Source: Gemmatimonadota bacterium
Lineage (GTDB): Bacteria; Gemmatimonadota; Gemmatimonadetes; Gemmatimonadales; Gemmatimonadaceae
Assembly (NCBI GenBank): GCA_021324775.1
Contig: JAJPIM010000002.1
Coordinates: 1-64,000 of the forward strand
DNA length: 64,000 nucleotides
Reading direction: 5' to 3'
Shown: positions 20,522 to 30,440 of the stretch, one piece after another
How positions within the stretch are numbered: position 1 is the first letter of the stretch
Layout: every line of letters begins with the position of its first letter
Position numbers and translations under genes: made by a program
Notes under the pieces: generated by a model
The model's database searches: none
What the model was told of the DNA's origin: nothing
The model's input: only the letters and a program-made list of their open reading frames with translations

Positions 20522-21802
20522 ATGCGCTACGATCGGCGGCGTCATGCCGCGGCGTCCACGACGAGCTATGTCTTCGGCCAGTTGATCCCGTACATCGGGA
20601 ACAAGCGGAAGCTCCTCGATCTCATTGCGCAGGCGCTGGCGCAGACGGGGACTGACCCGCGGGGCGCCCGATTTCTGGATGCCATGGCCGGCAGCGGCGT
20701 TGTGTCGCGCTGGGCAAAGAAGGTGGGCTTCGAAGTCGTGTCCAACGACTGGGAGCCGTACGCCGCCGCCATCAACGGCTGCTACATCGCCTGCAATACG
20801 CCTCCGGTCTACGCGCGCCGCCGGTCGTACGACCAGGTCATCGCCGAGCTCAATGCGTTGCCGCCCGGCGATGGCTGGGTGACGCAGCACCTGTGTCCCC
20901 GCGACGACGCCAACCCGGATGTGGAGCATGAGCGCATGTTCTACATGCGGAAGAATGGCCGGCGGATCGACGCAATCCGGTCCCGGATCGCCGAGTGGGA
21001 CGCGGCGGGCGAGTTGTCCGAGGCGCAGCGCTGTTGCCTGCTCGCCCCGCTGCTCTACCAGGCGTGCTACACGAGCAACACCTCGGGTGTGTTCAAGGGG
21101 TTCCATCGTGGCTGGGGAGGCCAGACCCGCACGGCGCTCTCCCGCATCGCGTCCGGCCTGCGGGTCTCCCCGGCGGTGTTCTTCGACAACGGGCGCCACA
21201 ACCAGGTCTTCCGCACGGATGCCGCGGATCTCGCGGCATCGCCGCGCGCGCTCGGCGCCATCGACGTCGTGTATCTCGACCCCCCGTACAATCAGCATCC
21301 GTACGGATCGAACTATCACGTGCTCAACACGGTCACACTGTGGGACCACCCGCTCCTCGAGCCCACGATCACGCGGCGAGGAGACAAATCGGCGATTCGG
21401 CAGGACTGGCGAGCCCGCCGGAGTCCCTACAACCGGCCGGCCGAGGCACTGGTGGCGCACGAGCGCCTGCTGGCGGCGTTCGATGTCCCGTGGATCGCGA
21501 CGAGCTACAGCACCGATGGCAATATCGACCTCCTGGCACTGTTGCGTGCGACGGTCGAGCGGGGCGACACGAGCGTGTTTCTGCGATCCTACAAGCGCTA
21601 CCGTGTCAGCGCGCAGCGGCTCTCGACGCGTCCGGTGAACGTGGAATTCGTGCTGCTGACCCGGACCGGCGGGCGCCGGAGCCTCAGTCCCGAGGCGCTG
21701 GCGGCGCGGATTTGCGCCGCCGAGCGAGCGGCGCTGGCAGCACACGCGAAGTCGCATGCGAAGGCCCGCCGGGGTGCGTCACGCGTACTCCAGGGGGCGT
21801 GA
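20522..21802 (+). CDS. Orphan D12-class N6-adenine DNA methyltransferase
   Basis: Predicted SAM-dependent adenine methyltransferase. 426 residues in the alpha-class order: [11 protein letters not shown] (24-32), SAM-binding [12 protein letters not shown] (51-62), a ~190-residue insert likely holding the target-recognition domain, then catalytic DPPY at 253-256 followed by [14 protein letters not shown]. No restriction endonuclease or other modification gene is near. The target site cannot be read from sequence. The ATG is preceded by a weak TACCTT at 20511-20516. The C-terminal tail is Ala/Arg-rich. Codon use resembles neighbours, so recent transfer is not obvious. Confidence 0.88.
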
Positions 21803-21840
21803 TCCGGGGCAAAATCACTGGCGATGTCACGAGTGGGGGA

Positions 21841-21863
21841 GCGGGCCTTTCCTGTTGGCCCGC
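21841..21863 (+). terminator. Hairpin after the methyltransferase gene
   Basis: GCGGGCC (21841-21847) pairs perfectly with GGCCCGC (21857-21863) around a T-rich nine-base loop. It lies 38 bases after the stop. No T-tract follows, so termination efficiency is unclear. Confidence 0.4.
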
Positions 21864-21869
21864 CGTCAG

Positions 21870-21898
21870 TTGAATTCGATTTGTCCGCTCGGTAAGTT
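21870..21898 (+). promoter_or_regulatory. Promoter of the nuo operon
   Basis: TTGAAT (21870-21875), a 17-base spacer, then TAAGTT (21893-21898) form a good sigma70-type promoter. The predicted start is near 21905, leaving a leader of about 46 bases with GGAG 13 bases before the nuoA ATG. Confidence 0.6.
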
Positions 21899-21913
21899 GA
21901 CTCGGCTGAGCTA

Positions 21914-21927
21914 GTGAATTTTTTCAC
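21914..21927. promoter_or_regulatory. CRP/FNR-like palindromic operator before nuoA
   Basis: GTGA-ATTTTT-TCAC is a perfect dyad with the GTGA-N6-TCAC core used by many CRP/FNR-family regulators. It lies about 10 bases downstream of the predicted nuo transcription start, where bound protein would block transcription. No regulator gene is in the window; function is inferred. Confidence 0.45.
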
Positions 21928-21951
21928 GAACTCTGGAGTTACCCCCGCCTC

Positions 21952-22356
21952 ATGGCGAGCTCATACGTTCCGGTGCTGTTGTTGATCGCGTTCGTGGTCG
22001 CAAACGCGGCGTTGATCATCGGCCTGTCGCACCTGACCGTTCGCCAGCGCCCCACGCCCGAAAAGCAGACGCCCTACGAGTCCGGCATTCCGCCGCTCGG
22101 TGATGCCCGCGAGCGCTTTTCGGTCAAGTTCTACATGGTCGCGATGTTGTTCATCGTCTTCGACATCGAGACCGTATTCATGATTCCATGGGGCGTCGGA
22201 TACCGGCAGCTTTCCTGCGGCGTGCCACTCGCTGGGGGAAGCTGTCCCGCCGGGCATCTGGTCTGGTTCGGCCTCGGCGAGATGCTCGTGTTCATGGCGA
22301 TCCTGCTGGCTGGGTTCGTCTATGTCTGGAAGAAGGGGGCGCTGCAATGGGACTGA
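21952..22356 (+). CDS. nuoA: NADH-quinone oxidoreductase subunit A
   Basis: Membrane subunit at the hinge of complex I. 134 residues with three predicted helices. [20 protein letters not shown] and the following FDIETVF match the conserved quinone-channel loop of NuoA/ND3. First gene of a complete nuoA-N run on the + strand. The stop overlaps the nuoB start by ten bases. Confidence 0.95.
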
Positions 22357-22985
22357 CCACGCGGCCGGCCGGCGCACCGGGAAAGGTGGTGTCCTACGAG
22401 CCGCAGTCGAGCGAAGGCTGGGTCGCCACTAAACTCGATTTCCTCGTGAATTGGGGGCGGGCCAACTCCCTGTGGCCGATGCCGTTCGGCACGGCGTGCT
22501 GCGCGATCGAATTCATGGCCACGGCGGCAAGCAAGTTCGACCTCGCGCGCTTCGGGATGGAGCGAATGAGCTTCTCCCCGCGCCAGGCCGACGTGCTGAT
22601 CTGCGCGGGCCGAGTGCCGTTCAAGCTGGCACCGATCATCCGGCGGATCTGGCAACAGATGCCACAGCCCAAGTGGTGCATCTCCATGGGGGCCTGCGCC
22701 TCGTCAGGCGGTATGTTCGACAACTACGCGGTCGTCCAGGGCATCGACACGATCATCCCCGTGGACGTGTATGTGCCGGGCTGCCCACCGCGTCCCGAGG
22801 GGCTGCTGTACGGCATCCGGATGCTGCAGGAGAAGGTCATGCGCGAGCGCATGTCGGACACCGCGCGGCTGCGTCGCGAGATGGATCCCGATCCGTCGAG
22901 CCGCCTGTTCATCCCGCCGCCGGCGATCGACGAGCTGTCCGAGCCGTTCGGTAACTCGGTCAACCAGACACGGTCCGCGCTGTGA
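22347..22985 (+). CDS. nuoB: NADH-quinone oxidoreductase subunit B
   Basis: Carries cluster N2, which hands electrons to quinone. 212 residues from ATG 22347. The N2 ligands are the tandem C51-C52 (GTACCAIEF), C117 ([10 protein letters not shown]) and C146 (VPGCPPRPE). The frame is open upstream inside nuoA, but that part is not conserved. Overlaps nuoA by ten bases and nuoC by GTGA. Confidence 0.96.
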
Positions 22986-23707
22986 GTACCGGGCTGGAGC
23001 CGGCGTCCGAGACGCCGGCGCGCATCGTGTATCCGGGGAGCGCCGATCCGGGCGCCCCGCGTCCGGCGACGCCCACCGGCGTCCCGCATCATGGCGGTCC
23101 CGAGAACCCGAGCGCCGCGGCCCTTCGCGCCCGGTTCCCGGACGCTGTCCGCCGCGTTCAGGTCGTGTGGGGCGAGACCACCGTGGTCGTCGTGGGGGAG
23201 CGGGTGCTCGAGATCGTGCGGTGGCTCCATGACGAGCCGCTCCACCTCTACACGTACCTGTCGGACGTCACCGCGGTGGAGTTTCGTGATCCCGAAGAGC
23301 CGCTGGCCGTCGTCTGGCACCTGCGGTCGCTCGCATACCGCCGGTTCCTGCGGCTCAAAGCCGAGATCCCGCCGGGCGGGCCACTCGAGGCCGACAGTGT
23401 GTGGTCCGTGTTCAAGGGTGCCGATTGGCTCGAGCGCGAGTGCTATGACATGTTCGGCATTCGCTTCCGCGGACACCCCGACCTGCGGCGTATTCTCATG
23501 TGGGAGCAGTATCTCGAAGGATTCCCCCTGAGGAAGGACTTCCCGCTGCGCGGGCGTTTCAGCCGGGCGGAGCAGCTCCGGCAGGCGCTCGCCGCGAATC
23601 CCGAGGCCCGGTATTCGATGGAGGAGCTGTCGATCGCCGACGCCTTCGAGGACTTGCCACCGTCGATGCGCGCCCGCCTGCAGGGCGGCGAGCAGACGGG
23701 GGAGTAG
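22982..23707 (+). CDS. nuoC: NADH-quinone oxidoreductase subunit C
   Basis: Peripheral-arm 30-kDa subunit. 241 residues. The first ~45 residues are a variable Pro/Ala-rich extension. The conserved core includes [35 protein letters not shown] and [11 protein letters not shown], ending with [10 protein letters not shown]. The GTG start overlaps nuoB by four bases. It is separate from nuoD, not fused as in enterobacteria. Confidence 0.95.
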
Positions 23708-23713
23708 CCAGCC

Positions 23714-25024
23714 GTGGACAACACGCGCACGATCGACGTCGCGCTCTCGACGAGTGGGCTGGACGCGGAAGGCCGTCCCGTGCGGGTGCCCTTGGCGGTG
23801 GACCGCGCCGGCCATCCGGTGGCCGTCACCCCGCCGCAAGCGCTCGAGCCCGATCTGCAGGGCGAGCACATGCTGATCAACCTCGGCCCGCAGCATCCGG
23901 CGACACACGGCGTGCTGCGCCTCGTCCTCGAGCTCGATGGCGAGACGGTCGTCCGCTGCATCCCCCACATCGGGTATCTGCACTGCGGGTTCGAGAAGAT
24001 CGGCGAGTACCGCCAGTACAACCAGATCATCCCGTGGACCGACCGCGAGGACTATCTCAACTCCATCGGCAACAACGTCGCGTTCGCGCTGGGCGCCGAG
24101 CGGCTGTTCGGCATCGACATCACGCCGCGATGCACGGTGCTCCGGGTCATCGCGGCCGAACTGTCGCGGATCATCTCGCACCTGGTGTGGCTGGGGACGA
24201 CGTGCATCGACATCGGCGCGTTCACGCCGTTCCTCTGGGCGTTCCAGGAGCGGGAGAACGTGTACCGCCTGCTCGAGAATTGGGTCGGCGCCCGCCTCAC
24301 GACGTCGGCCACGCGCGTTGGCGGGATGGCGGCCGACATACCCGACGGCTGGATGGATCAACTGCGCGGATTCCTCAGCGAGTTCCCGCGGACGATCGAT
24401 GAGATCGACCGGATGCTCACGCGCAACGCGATCTGGGTCGGGCGGACGGTCGGGCTCGGCGCCATGTCGGCCGAGGATGCCGAGAACTACGGGTTATCCG
24501 GCCCGATGCTGCGGGCCTCCGGCGTCGCGTACGATGTCCGCAAGGATTTCCCCTACCTGGACTACGAGACCTATGACTTCGAGGTCCCGGTCGGCACGCG
24601 CGGCGACGTCTACGACCGGTTCCTCGTACGGATGGAGGAACTCCGCCAGTCGATCCGCATTCTCGAGCAGGCCGTGGTGCGCCTGCCGGACGGACCGGTC
24701 AACATCGACGACCCTCGCGTGATCCTTCCGCCGAAAACGAAAGCGATGAACGAAATGGAGTCGATGATTCACCATTTCAAGCAGGTAATGGAAGGACCGC
24801 GCCCGCCGATCGGCGAATCCTACGTCGCGGTCGAGAGCCCCAAGGGCGAGAAGGGCTACTACATGGTGTCCGACGGGACCGCGAAGCCCGTACGGTGGCG
24901 CATCCGGCCGCCGTCGTTCGTGAACCTGTCGGCGATTCCAAAACTCGTCGAGGGCCATCTGCTCTCGGACGTCATAGCCATCAACGCCAGCATCGACATC
25001 GTGATGGGAGAGATCGACCGGTGA
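23714..25024 (+). CDS. nuoD: NADH-quinone oxidoreductase subunit D
   Basis: 49-kDa subunit that forms the quinone pocket with NuoB. 436 residues. INLGPQHPATHGVLR holds the quinone-contacting histidine; HCGFEK, NSIGNN and IPDGW-type segments follow, and the protein ends in the conserved SIDIVMGEIDR. About 50 N-terminal residues are non-conserved. GTG 23714 is six bases after nuoC. The stop overlaps nuoE (GTGA). Confidence 0.96.
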   Translation: MDNTRTIDVALSTSGLDAEGRPVRVPLAVDRAGHPVAVTPPQALEPDLQGEHMLINLGPQHPATHGVLRLVLELDGETVVRCIPHIGYLHCGFEKIGEYRQYNQIIPWTDREDYLNSIGNNVAFALGAERLFGIDITPRCTVLRVIAAELSRIISHLVWLGTTCIDIGAFTPFLWAFQERENVYRLLENWVGARLTTSATRVGGMAADIPDGWMDQLRGFLSEFPRTIDEIDRMLTRNAIWVGRTVGLGAMSAEDAENYGLSGPMLRASGVAYDVRKDFPYLDYETYDFEVPVGTRGDVYDRFLVRMEELRQSIRILEQAVVRLPDGPVNIDDPRVILPPKTKAMNEMESMIHHFKQVMEGPRPPIGESYVAVESPKGEKGYYMVSDGTAKPVRWRIRPPSFVNLSAIPKLVEGHLLSDVIAINASIDIVMGEIDR

Positions 25025-25590
25025 GTGCACCCGCCGGAGGCCCGTCGGCCGGGCCGCGGCTCACGGCGCTCGATCGCGCGCCGCGCGCCGATGCGCACGA
25101 GCGGGACGAGAATTACCAGCCGGTGTTCGTGAATGCGCGCCGCAAGGAGCTCGACGAGCTGCTGACGAGGTATCCGACGAAGATGGCGGCGCTGCTGCCC
25201 GCCCTCTGGATCGTTCAGGAGGAACGTGGCTGGGTGAGCGAGCCGGCCATGGCGGAGGTGGCCGCGGTGCTCGGTCTCACGCCCGCCTACGTCAAGGGCG
25301 TCGTGACGTTCTACACGATGTATCACCAGCATCCGGTCGGGAAATACTTCGTGCAGGTGTGCACGACGTCGCCGTGCAACGTCTGTGGCGCCGAGGACGT
25401 CGTGCGCGCATTCCTCAAGCAGACCGGAGCCAGCGATCTCGGTGCGACCTCGCCGGACGGACGGTTCACGGTGATCGAGGTGGAGTGCCTGGGGGCGTGT
25501 GGCTTCGCGACTCCCGTGATGATCAACAACGAATTTCTGGAATCCGTCTCCGCCGATCGGGTGCCATCCATCGTCGGGGCGCTGAAATGA
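25021..25590 (+). CDS. nuoE: NADH-quinone oxidoreductase subunit E
   Basis: 24-kDa subunit holding 2Fe-2S cluster N1a. 189 residues from GTG 25021. Ligands are C114, C119, C156 and C160 (VCTTSPC, VECLGACG). The thioredoxin-like fold is preceded by a helical region with RYPTKMAALLPALW. The start overlaps nuoD by GTGA. The longer upstream frame lies inside nuoD and is excluded. Confidence 0.95.
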   Translation: MSAPAGGPSAGPRLTALDRAPRADAHERDENYQPVFVNARRKELDELLTRYPTKMAALLPALWIVQEERGWVSEPAMAEVAAVLGLTPAYVKGVVTFYTMYHQHPVGKYFVQVCTTSPCNVCGAEDVVRAFLKQTGASDLGATSPDGRFTVIEVECLGACGFATPVMINNEFLESVSADRVPSIVGALK

Positions 25591-25615
25591 TGCCCGGGAC
25601 GAGGCGCTGACCGTA

Positions 25616-26941
25616 ATGGGATTTCCGCAGAAATCGCATCCCCGCGAGACGACGGTGCTGTCGAAGCACTTCGGGGACCCCGACGCGCGCACGTTGGCCG
25701 GTTGGCGCAACCGGGGGGGATACCGGGCGCTCGAGCAGACGCTCGCGATGGAGCCGGCGGCTATCGTGCAGATGGTCAAGGAATCCGGTTTGCGCGGCCG
25801 CGGCGGTGCGGGCTTCCCGACCGGCGTCAAGTGGTCATTCATGAAGCCGGGCGACGGCAAGCCGCACTACCTGTGCTGCAACGCCGACGAATCCGAGCCG
25901 GGCACGTTCAAGGATCGCGAGATCATGCGCTGGACGCCGCACGCCCTGGTCGAGGGTTGCGCGATCGGAGCCTATGCGATCGGTGCCGAGACGGCGTACG
26001 TCTACATCCGGGGCGAGTTCACCGAGCCGCTCGAGCGGATGACGGAGGCCGTGCGTGAGGCGTATGCCGAGGGCATCCTCGGCAGGAACGCGCTCGGCTC
26101 CGGTAAGCGGATCGACGTGTACGTCCACAAGGGCGCGGGCGCGTATATCTGCGGTGAAGAGACGGCCCTCATGAACTCCCTCGAGGGGCGGCGCGGTAAT
26201 CCTCGCATCAAACCCCCGTTTCCGGCGACGGCCGGAGTGTTCGGCCAGCCCACGACGATCAATAACGTCGAGACGCTCGTCGCGGTCCCGCACATCATCA
26301 ACAACGGCGCCGAGTGGTACAAGGCGATGTGCCTGGGCAACGCGAAAAGCACCGGAACGAAGCTGTACTCCGTCTGCGGCAACGTGCGCCGGCCTGGCAA
26401 CTACGAAGTCGTCATGGGCTTTCCGTTCAAGGAGTTCCTGTACGACCTCTGTGGCGGGCCACCGGCCGGCCGGCGGTTCAAGGCGATCATCCCCGGGGGA
26501 TCCTCCGTCCCGATCCAGACGATCGCGGAGGCGGAAGCCACCGTCATGGACTACGAGGGCTTCGTCGCCTGCGGCACGATGCTGGGATCCGGCGGCGTGA
26601 TCTGCATCGACGACGCGCAGTGCATGGTCAAGCAGATCGCCCGGCTGGCGCGGTTCTACGCGCACGAGAGTTGTGCCCAGTGCACCCAGTGCCGCGAGGG
26701 CACGGCGTGGACCACCAAGATCATGGAGCGGATCGAAGCGGGGCAGGGCACGGCCGGCGACCTCGACACGCTGCTGGACATCGCGGACAACATGACCGCC
26801 AAGACCATCTGCGTGCTCAGCGACTCCTGCGCCGTGCCGGTCGTGTCCGGGATTCAGAAGTTCCGGGACGAATTCGAGGCGCATATCGTGCAGCACCGGT
26901 GTCCGTTCCGGCCCGCGACGGCCGCGGCGGTGGCGGCATGA
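25616..26941 (+). CDS. nuoF: NADH-quinone oxidoreductase subunit F
   Basis: NADH- and FMN-binding subunit where electrons enter complex I. 441 residues. GRGGAGFPTGVKW binds NADH; CCNADESEPGTFKDRE contacts FMN; cluster N3 ligands are C353, C356, C359 (SCAQCTQCREGT) and C399. ATG 25616, 25 bases after nuoE. Confidence 0.97.
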   Translation: MGFPQKSHPRETTVLSKHFGDPDARTLAGWRNRGGYRALEQTLAMEPAAIVQMVKESGLRGRGGAGFPTGVKWSFMKPGDGKPHYLCCNADESEPGTFKDREIMRWTPHALVEGCAIGAYAIGAETAYVYIRGEFTEPLERMTEAVREAYAEGILGRNALGSGKRIDVYVHKGAGAYICGEETALMNSLEGRRGNPRIKPPFPATAGVFGQPTTINNVETLVAVPHIINNGAEWYKAMCLGNAKSTGTKLYSVCGNVRRPGNYEVVMGFPFKEFLYDLCGGPPAGRRFKAIIPGGSSVPIQTIAEAEATVMDYEGFVACGTMLGSGGVICIDDAQCMVKQIARLARFYAHESCAQCTQCREGTAWTTKIMERIEAGQGTAGDLDTLLDIADNMTAKTICVLSDSCAVPVVSGIQKFRDEFEAHIVQHRCPFRPATAAAVAA

Positions 26942-26966
26942 TGGTGATGTGCATCCGGACGGTCCG

Positions 26967-28556
26967 ATGACCGAAGGCAAGATGATCTCGGTGACGATCG
27001 AGGGCCGCGCGGTCCAGGTCCCCGAAGGGACGTCGATGCTGGAAGCCGCGAAGGTCGCGGGCGTGCTGATCCCGCACTACTGCTATCACCCCGGGCTTCC
27101 GGTCGCCGGTGTGTGCCGGATGTGCCTCGTCGAGGTCGAGAAGTCGGCCAAGCTCGCCCCCGCGTGCGCCACGTCGGTCGCGGAAGGCCAGGTCATCCAT
27201 GTGCACTCCGATCCCGCTCGCGTGGCGCGGCAGGGCGTACTCGAGATGCTGCTGATCAACCATCCGCTCGACTGCCCGATCTGCGACCAGTCGGGGGAGT
27301 GCGAGCTGCAGGACTACACGTTCGCCGAAGGACGAAAGGATTCCCGCTACCGGGAAGCCAAGCGGTTCAACCCGGTGGAGGACTTCGGCGGCGACGTGGT
27401 GTACGTACCGAATCGGTGCATCCTCTGCACGCGCTGCGTGCGGTTCATGGAGGATGTGGCGCACGACCCCGTGCTCAACGTCAGCGAGCGCGGCGACCGC
27501 GCGGTCATCGGGAAGTTCGAAGGGCAGGATCTCACCCACCCCTGGGCCGGCAACGTCGTCGAGCTCTGTCCCGTCGGCGCACTCCTGTCGAAGGACTTCC
27601 TCAACAAGGCGCGTTCCTGGGACCTCGACCGCTCGGCCTCGATCTGCCCGAACTGCACGCAGGGCTGCAACACCGCGCTCGAGAGCCGCGACAACGTGGT
27701 GGTCCGGATGCGCCCCCGGCCGAACGAGGACGTCAACAAGTACTTCCTCTGCGACGAGGGGCGGCTGAACTACCGGTGGCTCAACCGCCGCGACCGGGTC
27801 GAGTTCCCGCACATCCGACGCGGTGATGCGCTCGCACCGGCCGGCTGGGATGAGGCGGTCGAGGCGGCAGCGGCGGCCCTTCGCGGGCGCCGGGTGCACG
27901 TGGTCGCGTCGCCCTCGCTCTCCAACGAGGTGCTCTTCCAGCTCGCGCAGGTGATCGCCCGCCTGGGAGGGACCGGGGTGTTTCGCGTGCGGCAGGGACC
28001 GGAGGCTCCGCTCGATGGCGTGCCCGGCCTGTCACTACGCGCCGACCGCGCCGCGAACGTACGAGGCGCCGAGCTGCTCGGCTTCCGGAGGACGGAGACA
28101 CCGCTCGCGGGATTGGCCAATGGGGATGCGCTGCTCGTCGCCGACGAAGAGCTCGCGGGCGCCGACGCGGCCTCCCTGGCCGCCGCGGCCGCCACCGCCG
28201 CCGCGGTAGTCGTGATCGGGACGACGCTCCCGTCGTGGGCGATGCGCGCCGCGGTCATGCTGCCGATCGCCAACATGGCGGAGGAGGAAGGCACGTTCAC
28301 CAACGTCGAGGGGCGCGTGCAGCGGTACCTGCAGGCCAAGGCGGCACCGGGACTGGCGCGGCCCGGCTACGCCGCAATGGGTGACCTGCTCACGGCGCTC
28401 GGCGACCAGACGGTCAACGTCGTCCCCAGTGACGTCTTCCGCGCACTCGCGGCCGCCCATGCGCCATTCGGTGGCATGACGTACGAAGGACTGGGGCTGC
28501 GAGGCGCGACCGTGTCGGCACAGGCGCAGCCAGCGGCGTTGGCGGCCGCGACGTGA
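26967..28556 (+). CDS. nuoG: NADH-quinone oxidoreductase subunit G (short form)
   Basis: 75-kDa-type subunit carrying several Fe-S clusters. 529 residues from ATG 26967. N1b ligands are C39, C50, C53 and C67. The HPLDCPICDQSGECELQD region and CILCTRCVRF hold further clusters, and CPNCTQGCN begins the molybdopterin-oxidoreductase-like part. That C-terminal part is only about 300 residues and Ala-rich, so the protein is shorter than the usual 680-900. GTG 26949 and ATG 26982 are alternative starts. Overlaps nuoH by GTGA. Confidence 0.93.
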   Translation: MTEGKMISVTIEGRAVQVPEGTSMLEAAKVAGVLIPHYCYHPGLPVAGVCRMCLVEVEKSAKLAPACATSVAEGQVIHVHSDPARVARQGVLEMLLINHPLDCPICDQSGECELQDYTFAEGRKDSRYREAKRFNPVEDFGGDVVYVPNRCILCTRCVRFMEDVAHDPVLNVSERGDRAVIGKFEGQDLTHPWAGNVVELCPVGALLSKDFLNKARSWDLDRSASICPNCTQGCNTALESRDNVVVRMRPRPNEDVNKYFLCDEGRLNYRWLNRRDRVEFPHIRRGDALAPAGWDEAVEAAAAALRGRRVHVVASPSLSNEVLFQLAQVIARLGGTGVFRVRQGPEAPLDGVPGLSLRADRAANVRGAELLGFRRTETPLAGLANGDALLVADEELAGADAASLAAAAATAAAVVVIGTTLPSWAMRAAVMLPIANMAEEEGTFTNVEGRVQRYLQAKAAPGLARPGYAAMGDLLTALGDQTVNVVPSDVFRALAAAHAPFGGMTYEGLGLRGATVSAQAQPAALAAAT

Positions 28557-29899
28557 TCGCGGCCATGCTGCTGCCGGCGTCGCTACCGCCCATGTTGCAG
28601 CGCATCGTCGATCCGCAGGCGCCGCCGGCCGACGTCGGGTTCTTCGGGCCGATCGGCGTCCCGCTGATCTATACGATCGTGAAACTGCTGATCGTGTTCA
28701 CGGTGTACATGGTCGGCGTCGCGCTGCTCACTCTGGCGGAACGGAAGATCTCGGCGTGGATACAGGACCGGCTGGGACCGAACCGCGTGATCAAGGGGTG
28801 GGGCCAGCCGCTCGCGGACGGCGTCAAGAATTTCATGAAGGAAGAGACGCTTCCGGACGCGGCCAACAAGCCGCTCTTCCTCCTCGCGCCCGCGATGGCA
28901 TTCATCCCCGCGCTGACCGTGTGGGCCGTCATACCATTCGCCGCACCGCTACCGCTCCGGTGGGGGCGGATGGACATGGTGCTGGCCGATCTGCCGATTG
29001 GATACCTGTACATCCTCGCCCTCGCGTCGCTCGGTGTATTCGGGGTCGTGCTCGCCGGGTGGGCGTCGAACAACAAGTACGCGCTGCTGGGCGGCCTGCG
29101 TTCGAGCGCGCAGATGGTGTCGTACGAGATCGCGATGGGCATGTCGACGGTTCCCATTCTGCTGCTGGCCGGCGATGTCTCGCTCAGCACGATCGTACGC
29201 CAGCAGGAGCAGAACGGCTGGTACGTCCTCACGCTGACCGTGGCCTGCTTCATCTTCATCGTCTCGGCGTTCGCGGAGACGAACCGGCTGCCCTTCGACC
29301 TTCCGGAGGCCGAGTCGGAACTCATCGCAGGCTATCATACCGAATACAGCGCGATGAAGTTCTCGCTCTTCTTCATTGCGGAATACGCCAACATGGTCAC
29401 CGCCAGCGCGCTCATGGCGACGCTGTTCTTCGGCGGATGGACGGTTCCGTTCTGGCACGCCGTCAACAACGCCCCGTGGGCGTGGTGGAAGACGGCGATC
29501 ACCCTGGGTGCCTTCCTCTTCAAGGTCCTGTTCTTCCTGTTCTTCTATATGTGGATCCGGTGGACGTTGCCCCGGTTCCGGTACGACCAACTGATGTCGC
29601 TCGGGTGGAAGATCCTGCTGCCGCTCACGATCGGGTATGTCGTGGTGATTGCGGGCGCGACGCTGGGGCTCGACGCCCTCGGCGTGCCGCGCACGCCGTG
29701 GCATGGGTGGCCGGTCTACAGCCTGTGCCTCCTGGCGCTCAACATCGGGCTTATCGGCCTCCTGTTCGTCGTCGCCGATCGCGGCCGGCTCATCAGTCCA
29801 GCGAGCGCGCGCGTCCGGGCCGCAGAGCTCGCACGGCTCCGGGCGGTACGGCAGCGCTCCACGCTGGCGCACGAGGCGACATCCGGGGCGGGGGATTGA
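28553..29899 (+). CDS. nuoH: NADH-quinone oxidoreductase subunit H
   Basis: Membrane subunit next to the quinone site. 448 residues with about eight or nine helices. The conserved loops GPNRVIKGWGQPLADGVK and ETNRLPFDLPEAESELIAGY, with HTEYSAMKF after the latter, are intact. A ~40-residue N-terminal stretch precedes the first helix. The GTG start overlaps nuoG. Confidence 0.95.
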   Translation: MIAAMLLPASLPPMLQRIVDPQAPPADVGFFGPIGVPLIYTIVKLLIVFTVYMVGVALLTLAERKISAWIQDRLGPNRVIKGWGQPLADGVKNFMKEETLPDAANKPLFLLAPAMAFIPALTVWAVIPFAAPLPLRWGRMDMVLADLPIGYLYILALASLGVFGVVLAGWASNNKYALLGGLRSSAQMVSYEIAMGMSTVPILLLAGDVSLSTIVRQQEQNGWYVLTLTVACFIFIVSAFAETNRLPFDLPEAESELIAGYHTEYSAMKFSLFFIAEYANMVTASALMATLFFGGWTVPFWHAVNNAPWAWWKTAITLGAFLFKVLFFLFFYMWIRWTLPRFRYDQLMSLGWKILLPLTIGYVVVIAGATLGLDALGVPRTPWHGWPVYSLCLLALNIGLIGLLFVVADRGRLISPASARVRAAELARLRAVRQRSTLAHEATSGAGD

Positions 29900-29942
29900 T
29901 GCCGCCGCTCCAGCGTTTCCCATTCGTGGAGTCGAGGTCCTG

Positions 29943-30440
29943 ATGCCGATCGGTGTCAAAGTGCTGGCCCGTCCAATCGACGAGGTGAGCTACGTGCGCG
30001 CGGCCGTGAAGGGGATGGCCCTCACCTTCAAGCACCTGATCAACCCGCACAAGGTGACGGTGCAGTACCCGGAGCACCGGGACCCGCTGTCTCCTCGCTG
30101 GCGCGGTACGCATCGCATGCTGACGACCGAGGACGGCACCGCCAAGTGCGTTGCGTGCGGGCTCTGTCCGGCCGTCTGCCCGGCAAACTGCATCAAGTTA
30201 GTCCCCGGCGAGGACGAAAACGGGAACCGGTACCCGCTGGTGTTCGAGATTGACGAGTTCCGCTGCATCTTCTGCGGGTATTGCCAGGAAGTGTGCCCCG
30301 AAGAGGCAATCCACGTCGGGCGCCACTACGAGAACTCCGAATACAGCCGCGACGGATTCGTGTACGATCTCGAGCGTCTGATGGCCCAGACGCACCCGGT
30401 CTGCGAGATGTGGGACCCTGCGGACCCCAAGGGCGAGTGA
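29943..30440 (+). CDS. nuoI: NADH-quinone oxidoreductase subunit I
   Basis: Ferredoxin-like subunit with clusters N6a and N6b. 165 residues from ATG 29943. Ligand sets are C69, C72, C75, C79 (CVACGLCPAVCP) and C108, C111, C114, C118 (CIFCGYCQEVCP). It starts 43 bases after nuoH; the upstream open frame is a shadow of nuoH. Confidence 0.96.
   Translation: MPIGVKVLARPIDEVSYVRAAVKGMALTFKHLINPHKVTVQYPEHRDPLSPRWRGTHRMLTTEDGTAKCVACGLCPAVCPANCIKLVPGEDENGNRYPLVFEIDEFRCIFCGYCQEVCPEEAIHVGRHYENSEYSRDGFVYDLERLMAQTHPVCEMWDPADPKGE

Follow-up and report, generated by a model that had tools for sequence, protein, structure and literature searches.

We find that a perfect dyad just upstream of nuoA, GTGAATTTTTTCAC, at positions 21914-21927 of the window (the whole 64,000-nt stretch of DNA analyzed, which lies on G000:C36 of a 4.19-Mb genome), is very probably an operator at which Rex, a repressor that senses NADH/NAD+, acts on the nuo (complex I) operon. 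We put the probability of this reading, which is drawn from sequence, at roughly 0.88. The features that carry it were computed: conservation of the site, promoter geometry, co-occurrence with Rex, the presence of the same element before rex and act genes, and the retention of DNA-reading residues in the Rex protein. The initial annotation had described a perfect GTGA-ATTTTT-TCAC dyad, which we confirm, with exact 5-bp arms (GTGAA/TTCAC) around TTTT. It had also tied complex I to a redox signal, a link that the predicted Rex site supports. Its choice of a CRP/FNR protein as the regulator is not supported, as the inner A/T bases have the Rex form, the site follows Rex across genomes, and the element stands before rex itself.

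The dyad ends 24 bp upstream of the nuoA start, in the 149-bp intergenic gap between a gene for a D12-class DNA methyltransferase (20522-21802; PF02086) and nuoA (21952-22356, plus strand), the first gene of the nuo operon. NuoA families were the only NCBIfam families matched by the nuoA product, each below its cut-off, and the remainder of the operon in the window, nuoB to nuoI (22347-30440, plus strand), was named by inspecting translations and not by family search. The gap also contains the promoter, with a -35 element TTGAAT at 21870-21875 and, after 17 bp, a -10 element TAAGTT at 21893-21898, both on the plus strand. These match the E. coli consensus at 4/6 and 3/6 positions, respectively, and an E. 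coli consensus scan of 21790-21960 found no promoter; by those rules, the earlier description of a "good" promoter was generous, although its placement of the two elements stands. Despite this poor fit, the promoter call holds for the phylum because 69 of the 78 site-bearing nuoA upstream regions have TTGnnn at the same place and TAnnTT 17 or 18 bp further on, ending 9 to 23 nt (most often 16) before the site. TTGnnn-N17/18-TAnnTT is the usual nuoA promoter form there, with TTGACA as the -35 element in 35 of the relatives and TTGAAT in 8, and it can be regarded as typical of the phylum. The -10 form TAnnTT upstream of nuoA (loci L008-L087) departs from TATAAT. Downstream of the -10 element comes the dyad, a position that predicts repression, as the initial annotation had argued. 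Separately, an inverted repeat, GCGGGCC-N9-GGCCCGC, lies at 21841-21863, in the stretch that separates the nuo promoter from the methyltransferase gene; it has no T run, and a terminator scan called none at this repeat.

Counts from the window alone leave room for the view that the dyad arose by chance and has no function. GTGA-N6-TCAC occurs twice against 0.90 expected, and TTGTGAA-N4-TTCACAA with up to three mismatches occurs once (with two) against 0.22 expected; neither is significant alone, and the genome holds 109 copies of GTGA-N6-TCAC. The stricter GTGAA-N4-TTCAC occurs once in the window (0.04 expected) and seven times genome-wide, with none for the reversed pattern. Chance is contradicted by conservation before nuoA. 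Among the 80 loci of the best NuoA relatives retained, all Gemmatimonadota by title save one titled just "bacterium," 77 carry GTGA-N6-TCAC within 150 bp upstream of nuoA, whereas nuo coding sequence further downstream has 5 sites in 183,346 bp. Two of the three remaining loci lack any site (L012 and L015), and the third (L014) has one base altered. When 200 bp upstream was considered and the window added, the site was found in 78 of 81, with GTGAA-N4-TTCAC kept in 75. Loss of the site from upstream of nuoA in relatives had been named as grounds for abandoning the idea of an operator, and the site is retained. A second set, which overlaps with the 80 loci and is not independent of them, gave the same picture: 69 nuoA upstream regions across 97 genomes contain GTGA-N6-TCAC, whereas none was found in the reversed sequences and block shuffling left 0.43 on average and at most 2, and the exact core GTGAA-N4-TTCAC precedes nuoA in 68 of the 97. 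We consequently reject a chance origin, to which we assign a negligible probability. As a separate matter, the genome-wide excess of GTGA-N6-TCAC (109, against 23 for the reversed pattern) is beyond what the few Rex-type sites explain.

What kind of regulator reads the site is suggested by its inner bases. The CRP operator consensus has GTGA-N6-TCAC spacing, and the HcpR-like motif is likewise TTGTGA-N6-TCACAA. The nuoA dyad contains this CRP core with the same spacing, which favors a member of the CRP/FNR family, whether classical CRP or HcpR-like, as the protein that binds the dyad and represses nuo. In contrast to the CRP operator, however, the nuoA sites have an almost invariant inner A and T: among 69 aligned sites, position 5 is A in 68 and position 10 is T in all 69, the search pattern having left both free, and two bases past the right arm there is an A in 65. 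The resulting consensus, GTGAA-N4-TTCAC, agrees with the one published for Rex operators, TTGTGAANNNNTTCACAA, given in passages of PMC5355995 and PMC5317091. In the window, the 18-bp predicted Rex-type operator TAGTGAATTTTTTCACGA (21912-21929, plus strand) contains the core GTGAA-TTTT-TTCAC (21914-21927, no strand assigned) without change and differs from TTGTGAA-N4-TTCACAA at two positions, both outer bases. A GTGA...TCAC dyad is easily taken for a CRP/FNR site if no attention is paid to its inner bases and to the regulators that co-occur with it.

The same alignment bears on the possibility that the dyad works at the RNA level, by folding into a hairpin in the leader of nuoA, and not as a protein-binding DNA site. 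Its place after the predicted start means that the dyad would be transcribed. Across the 69 sites, however, no compensatory change is seen: the core pairs never vary (for four of them, the search pattern is part of the reason), and just 14 of the 69 have a complementary pair at the next position outward; in addition, the element recurs before rex and actA. We reject the hairpin because its pairs show no compensatory change, and we hold it to be very improbable.

Rex is widespread in the phylum, with PF06971 detected in 267 of 298 Gemmatimonadota genomes. Among the 97 genomes with nuoA, the site precedes it in 61 of 71 that have Rex and in 8 of 26 that do not (Fisher P = 4e-7). The first group combines 68 genomes with nuoA from a sample of one genome per genus (69 of 106 Rex-positive genera) with G000, G001, and G002; the second consists of those with a nuoA match among 31 Rex-negative genomes, 11 of which were identified by elimination, as numbers absent from the named genomes. 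Counted by genus, the site is found in 59 of 69 with Rex and 7 of 19 without (P = 6e-5). In family f5, all 16 genomes with Rex have the site and none of the 9 without Rex does, six of these nine being of one genus. Close relatives show the same pattern: in genera g62 and g86 of this family, one sampled genome has Rex and the site and another has neither, and in genus g10, G066 has Rex and an intact site, whereas G032 has no Rex and a site damaged at one base.

There are exceptions on both sides. Ten Rex-positive genomes lack the nuoA site, distributed over families f2 (3), f3 (3), f8 (1), f9 (1), and f11 (2). Eight Rex-negative assemblies keep it (G201, G230, G291, G056, G252, G215, G178, and G142), and of these G056 is rated 99% complete. 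Because G230, G291, and, weakly, G252 also carry a site before actA, the sequences suggest that in these genomes rex may simply be missing from the assembly. The weak match, that of G252, has a position weight matrix score under the 95% level of its shuffles, and the act region of G142 was covered over 340 bp.

The site follows the distribution of CRP-type proteins less well than that of Rex. Of 80 genomes searched for the CRP-type helix-turn-helix domain PF13545, 64 have it above the cut-off, in agreement with the 16 genomes assigned as lacking it. A CRP/FNR-type domain is not present wherever the site is: seven Rex-positive genomes have the nuoA site and no over-cut-off PF13545, six of them with sub-cut-off matches and one (G223) with none. 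Outside f5, the Rex-positive genomes in this search had been preselected for the nuoA site, so that there only the existence of such genomes counts, and the contrast over all CRP-lacking genomes (site in 7/7 with Rex and 0/9 without) was set aside as a statistical test. For f5, all 16 sampled Rex-positive genomes were entered and were not chosen by site, and among the CRP-lacking genomes of this family the site is present in 4/4 with Rex and 0/8 without. Five other Rex-negative genomes (G032, G082, G051, G238, and G233) have CRP but no intact site. Against these observations, Rex-negative genomes have the site only where an over-cut-off CRP-type domain exists (8/13 versus 0/9), a pattern that could reflect family membership and assembly gaps.

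The genome studied here has four PF13545 matches, and one of these CRP-family proteins (L088:1411-2145, G000:C32) has the recognition helix SRETVSR, which we take to resemble that of E. coli CRP. Because of this helix, it is possible that this protein binds the nuoA dyad to some extent, for example in vitro. Close to the 3' end of the gene for this CRP is another dyad, TTGTGATCCCCATCACAC (G000:C32:83754). True CRP sites in this genome may be of the form GTGAT...ATCAC. The four matches, the SRETVSR helix, and the genomic excess of GTGA-N6-TCAC noted above favor CRP/FNR. Given the inner A/T bases, the genomes cited above that have the site without CRP or CRP without the site, and the element before rex, we regard repression of nuo by a CRP/FNR protein as improbable, if less so than a hairpin.

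Further indications for Rex come from other genes preceded by the same element. The element was found before rex in all 20 genomes, from four families, whose rex upstream regions were fetched from the better-scoring Rex matches listed and not at random; 17 have exact TTGTGAA-N4-TTCACAA and 3 have one mismatch. It also stands before rex in G021 and G006, making 22 of the 23 genomes examined overall, the sole exception being the genome studied here, before whose rex the element was not found. In this genome, an exact match with no mismatches, TTGTGAAAAAGTTCACAA, occurs ~40 bp before actA (L204:954-971 = G000:C21:32453-32470), the first gene of the Alternative Complex III operon. The operon was named by inspection, with Pfam support for a multihaem cytochrome, a molybdopterin/FeS subunit, and an NrfD-type subunit. 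In other Rex-positive genomes, the actA site was present in 15/18 of f1 (the family of this genome), 5/14 of f2, and 0/26 of f4-f7; in Rex-negative genomes it was present in 4/22 (3/7 in f1 and 1/4 in f2), and G238 has no detected Rex, yet carries the element before actA. Because Alternative Complex III itself was found in 80 of 80 genomes searched, only part of the order has it as a predicted Rex target.

Two more sites in the genome are of the Rex type. One lies between clpP and clpX (L092:1501-1514 = G000:C8:30949-30962) and was found in four genomes of two genera, G000, G001, G002, and G006 (loci L092, L211, L220, and L221). In G006 (L221) it falls within a longer GC-flanked hairpin directly after clpP, which could be a terminator. 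A tRNA near the site was considered and rejected, as ARAGORN found none in the four loci. The other, TTGTGAAAAATATCACAA, has one mismatch and precedes atpA, which encodes the ATP synthase alpha subunit, by ~90 bp in this genome (L329:1501-1518 = G000:C9:4875-4892). The remaining four exact 14-bp sites of the genome (on C17, C31, C34, and C40) have GC-rich centers and were judged to be coding.

The genome encodes one Rex, the single PF06971 match, of 250 aa. This protein scores above the NCBIfam equivalog cut-off (NF003992), matches both PF02629 and PF06971, and has relatives among solved Rex structures, which represent 8 distinct sequences; its gene adjoins one resembling ksgA, by inspection. 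In the Thermotoga Rex-DNA complex, as described in PMC8836258, twelve residues contact DNA, with Arg48, Lys49, Arg60, and Gly61 reading bases. Ten of the twelve are kept here, including all four base readers, and the two that are changed (Glu34 to Gln and Lys43 to Ser) contact phosphates.

According to passages of PMC8836258 and PMC5355995, NAD+-bound Rex attaches to its operator and acts as a repressor, and NADH draws its DNA-binding domains toward each other and frees it from the DNA. We infer binding, the response to NADH, the direction of regulation, and the transcription start in the present case as follows. Rex-NAD+ would occupy 21912-21929, corresponding to about +8 to +25 for a transcription start ~7 nt past the -10 element, and would thereby keep RNA polymerase at the TTGAAT-N17-TAAGTT promoter from initiating or from elongating beyond an early stage. 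A rise in NADH would convert the repressor to Rex-NADH, which would leave the operator and allow complex I to be made, and complex I would then oxidize NADH again. Counting against Rex are the two outer mismatches of the nuoA site, the eight Rex-negative genomes that keep the site, the ten Rex-positive ones without it, the absence of the element before this genome's own rex, the two altered phosphate contacts, the actA site of G238, and the confinement of the nuoA site, among Rex-negative genomes, to those with a CRP-type domain.

Taken together, these sites allow a broader but tentative proposal, to which we give somewhat less than even odds: Gemmatimonadota Rex may control the aerobic chain as one unit, comprising nuo, act, possibly ATP synthase through the atpA site, and the unfoldase ClpX, so that the cell would adjust its oxidation of NADH and quinol, and its protein turnover, to the NADH/NAD+ ratio, with the nuo operator decaying upon loss of rex. 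Alternative Complex III, for which redox control is thus predicted, would be the less expected part. The Rex regulon passages of PMC5317091 make no mention of it as a Rex target, and our literature search, which left most subscription journals outside its reach, found no published link between Rex and Alternative Complex III and no study of a Gemmatimonadota Rex.

For a phylum that has been little studied, complex I thus gains a likely regulator and a likely signal, the NADH/NAD+ ratio. Rex control of nuo is already known from Streptomyces, and the Gemmatimonadota case would be a new example of a known switch. The Rex regulon reconstruction of Ravcheev (2012), as quoted in a passage of PMC5317091, gives the same general consensus, TTGTGAANNNNTTCACAA, and that source also describes, for Caldithrix, a Rex site preceding the operon that contains rex, like the rex sites found here. 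The closest parallel, in the sections of PMC5355995 on Streptomyces avermitilis, is the Rex operator of nuoA1-N1, which shares the target operon and a GTGA...TCAC dyad, the motif searched there being TTGTGAANNNNTTCACAA. Footprinted Rex sites of that organism include a TTCACGA end (atpI) and a TCGTGAA start (wblE), an outer-base variation like that of the Gemmatimonadota sites. The two systems differ in that the S. avermitilis nuoA1 site covers the -35 region, whereas the Gemmatimonadota site comes after the -10 element, and in that Rex binding has been shown in Streptomyces, a member of another phylum, whereas the site described here is a prediction.
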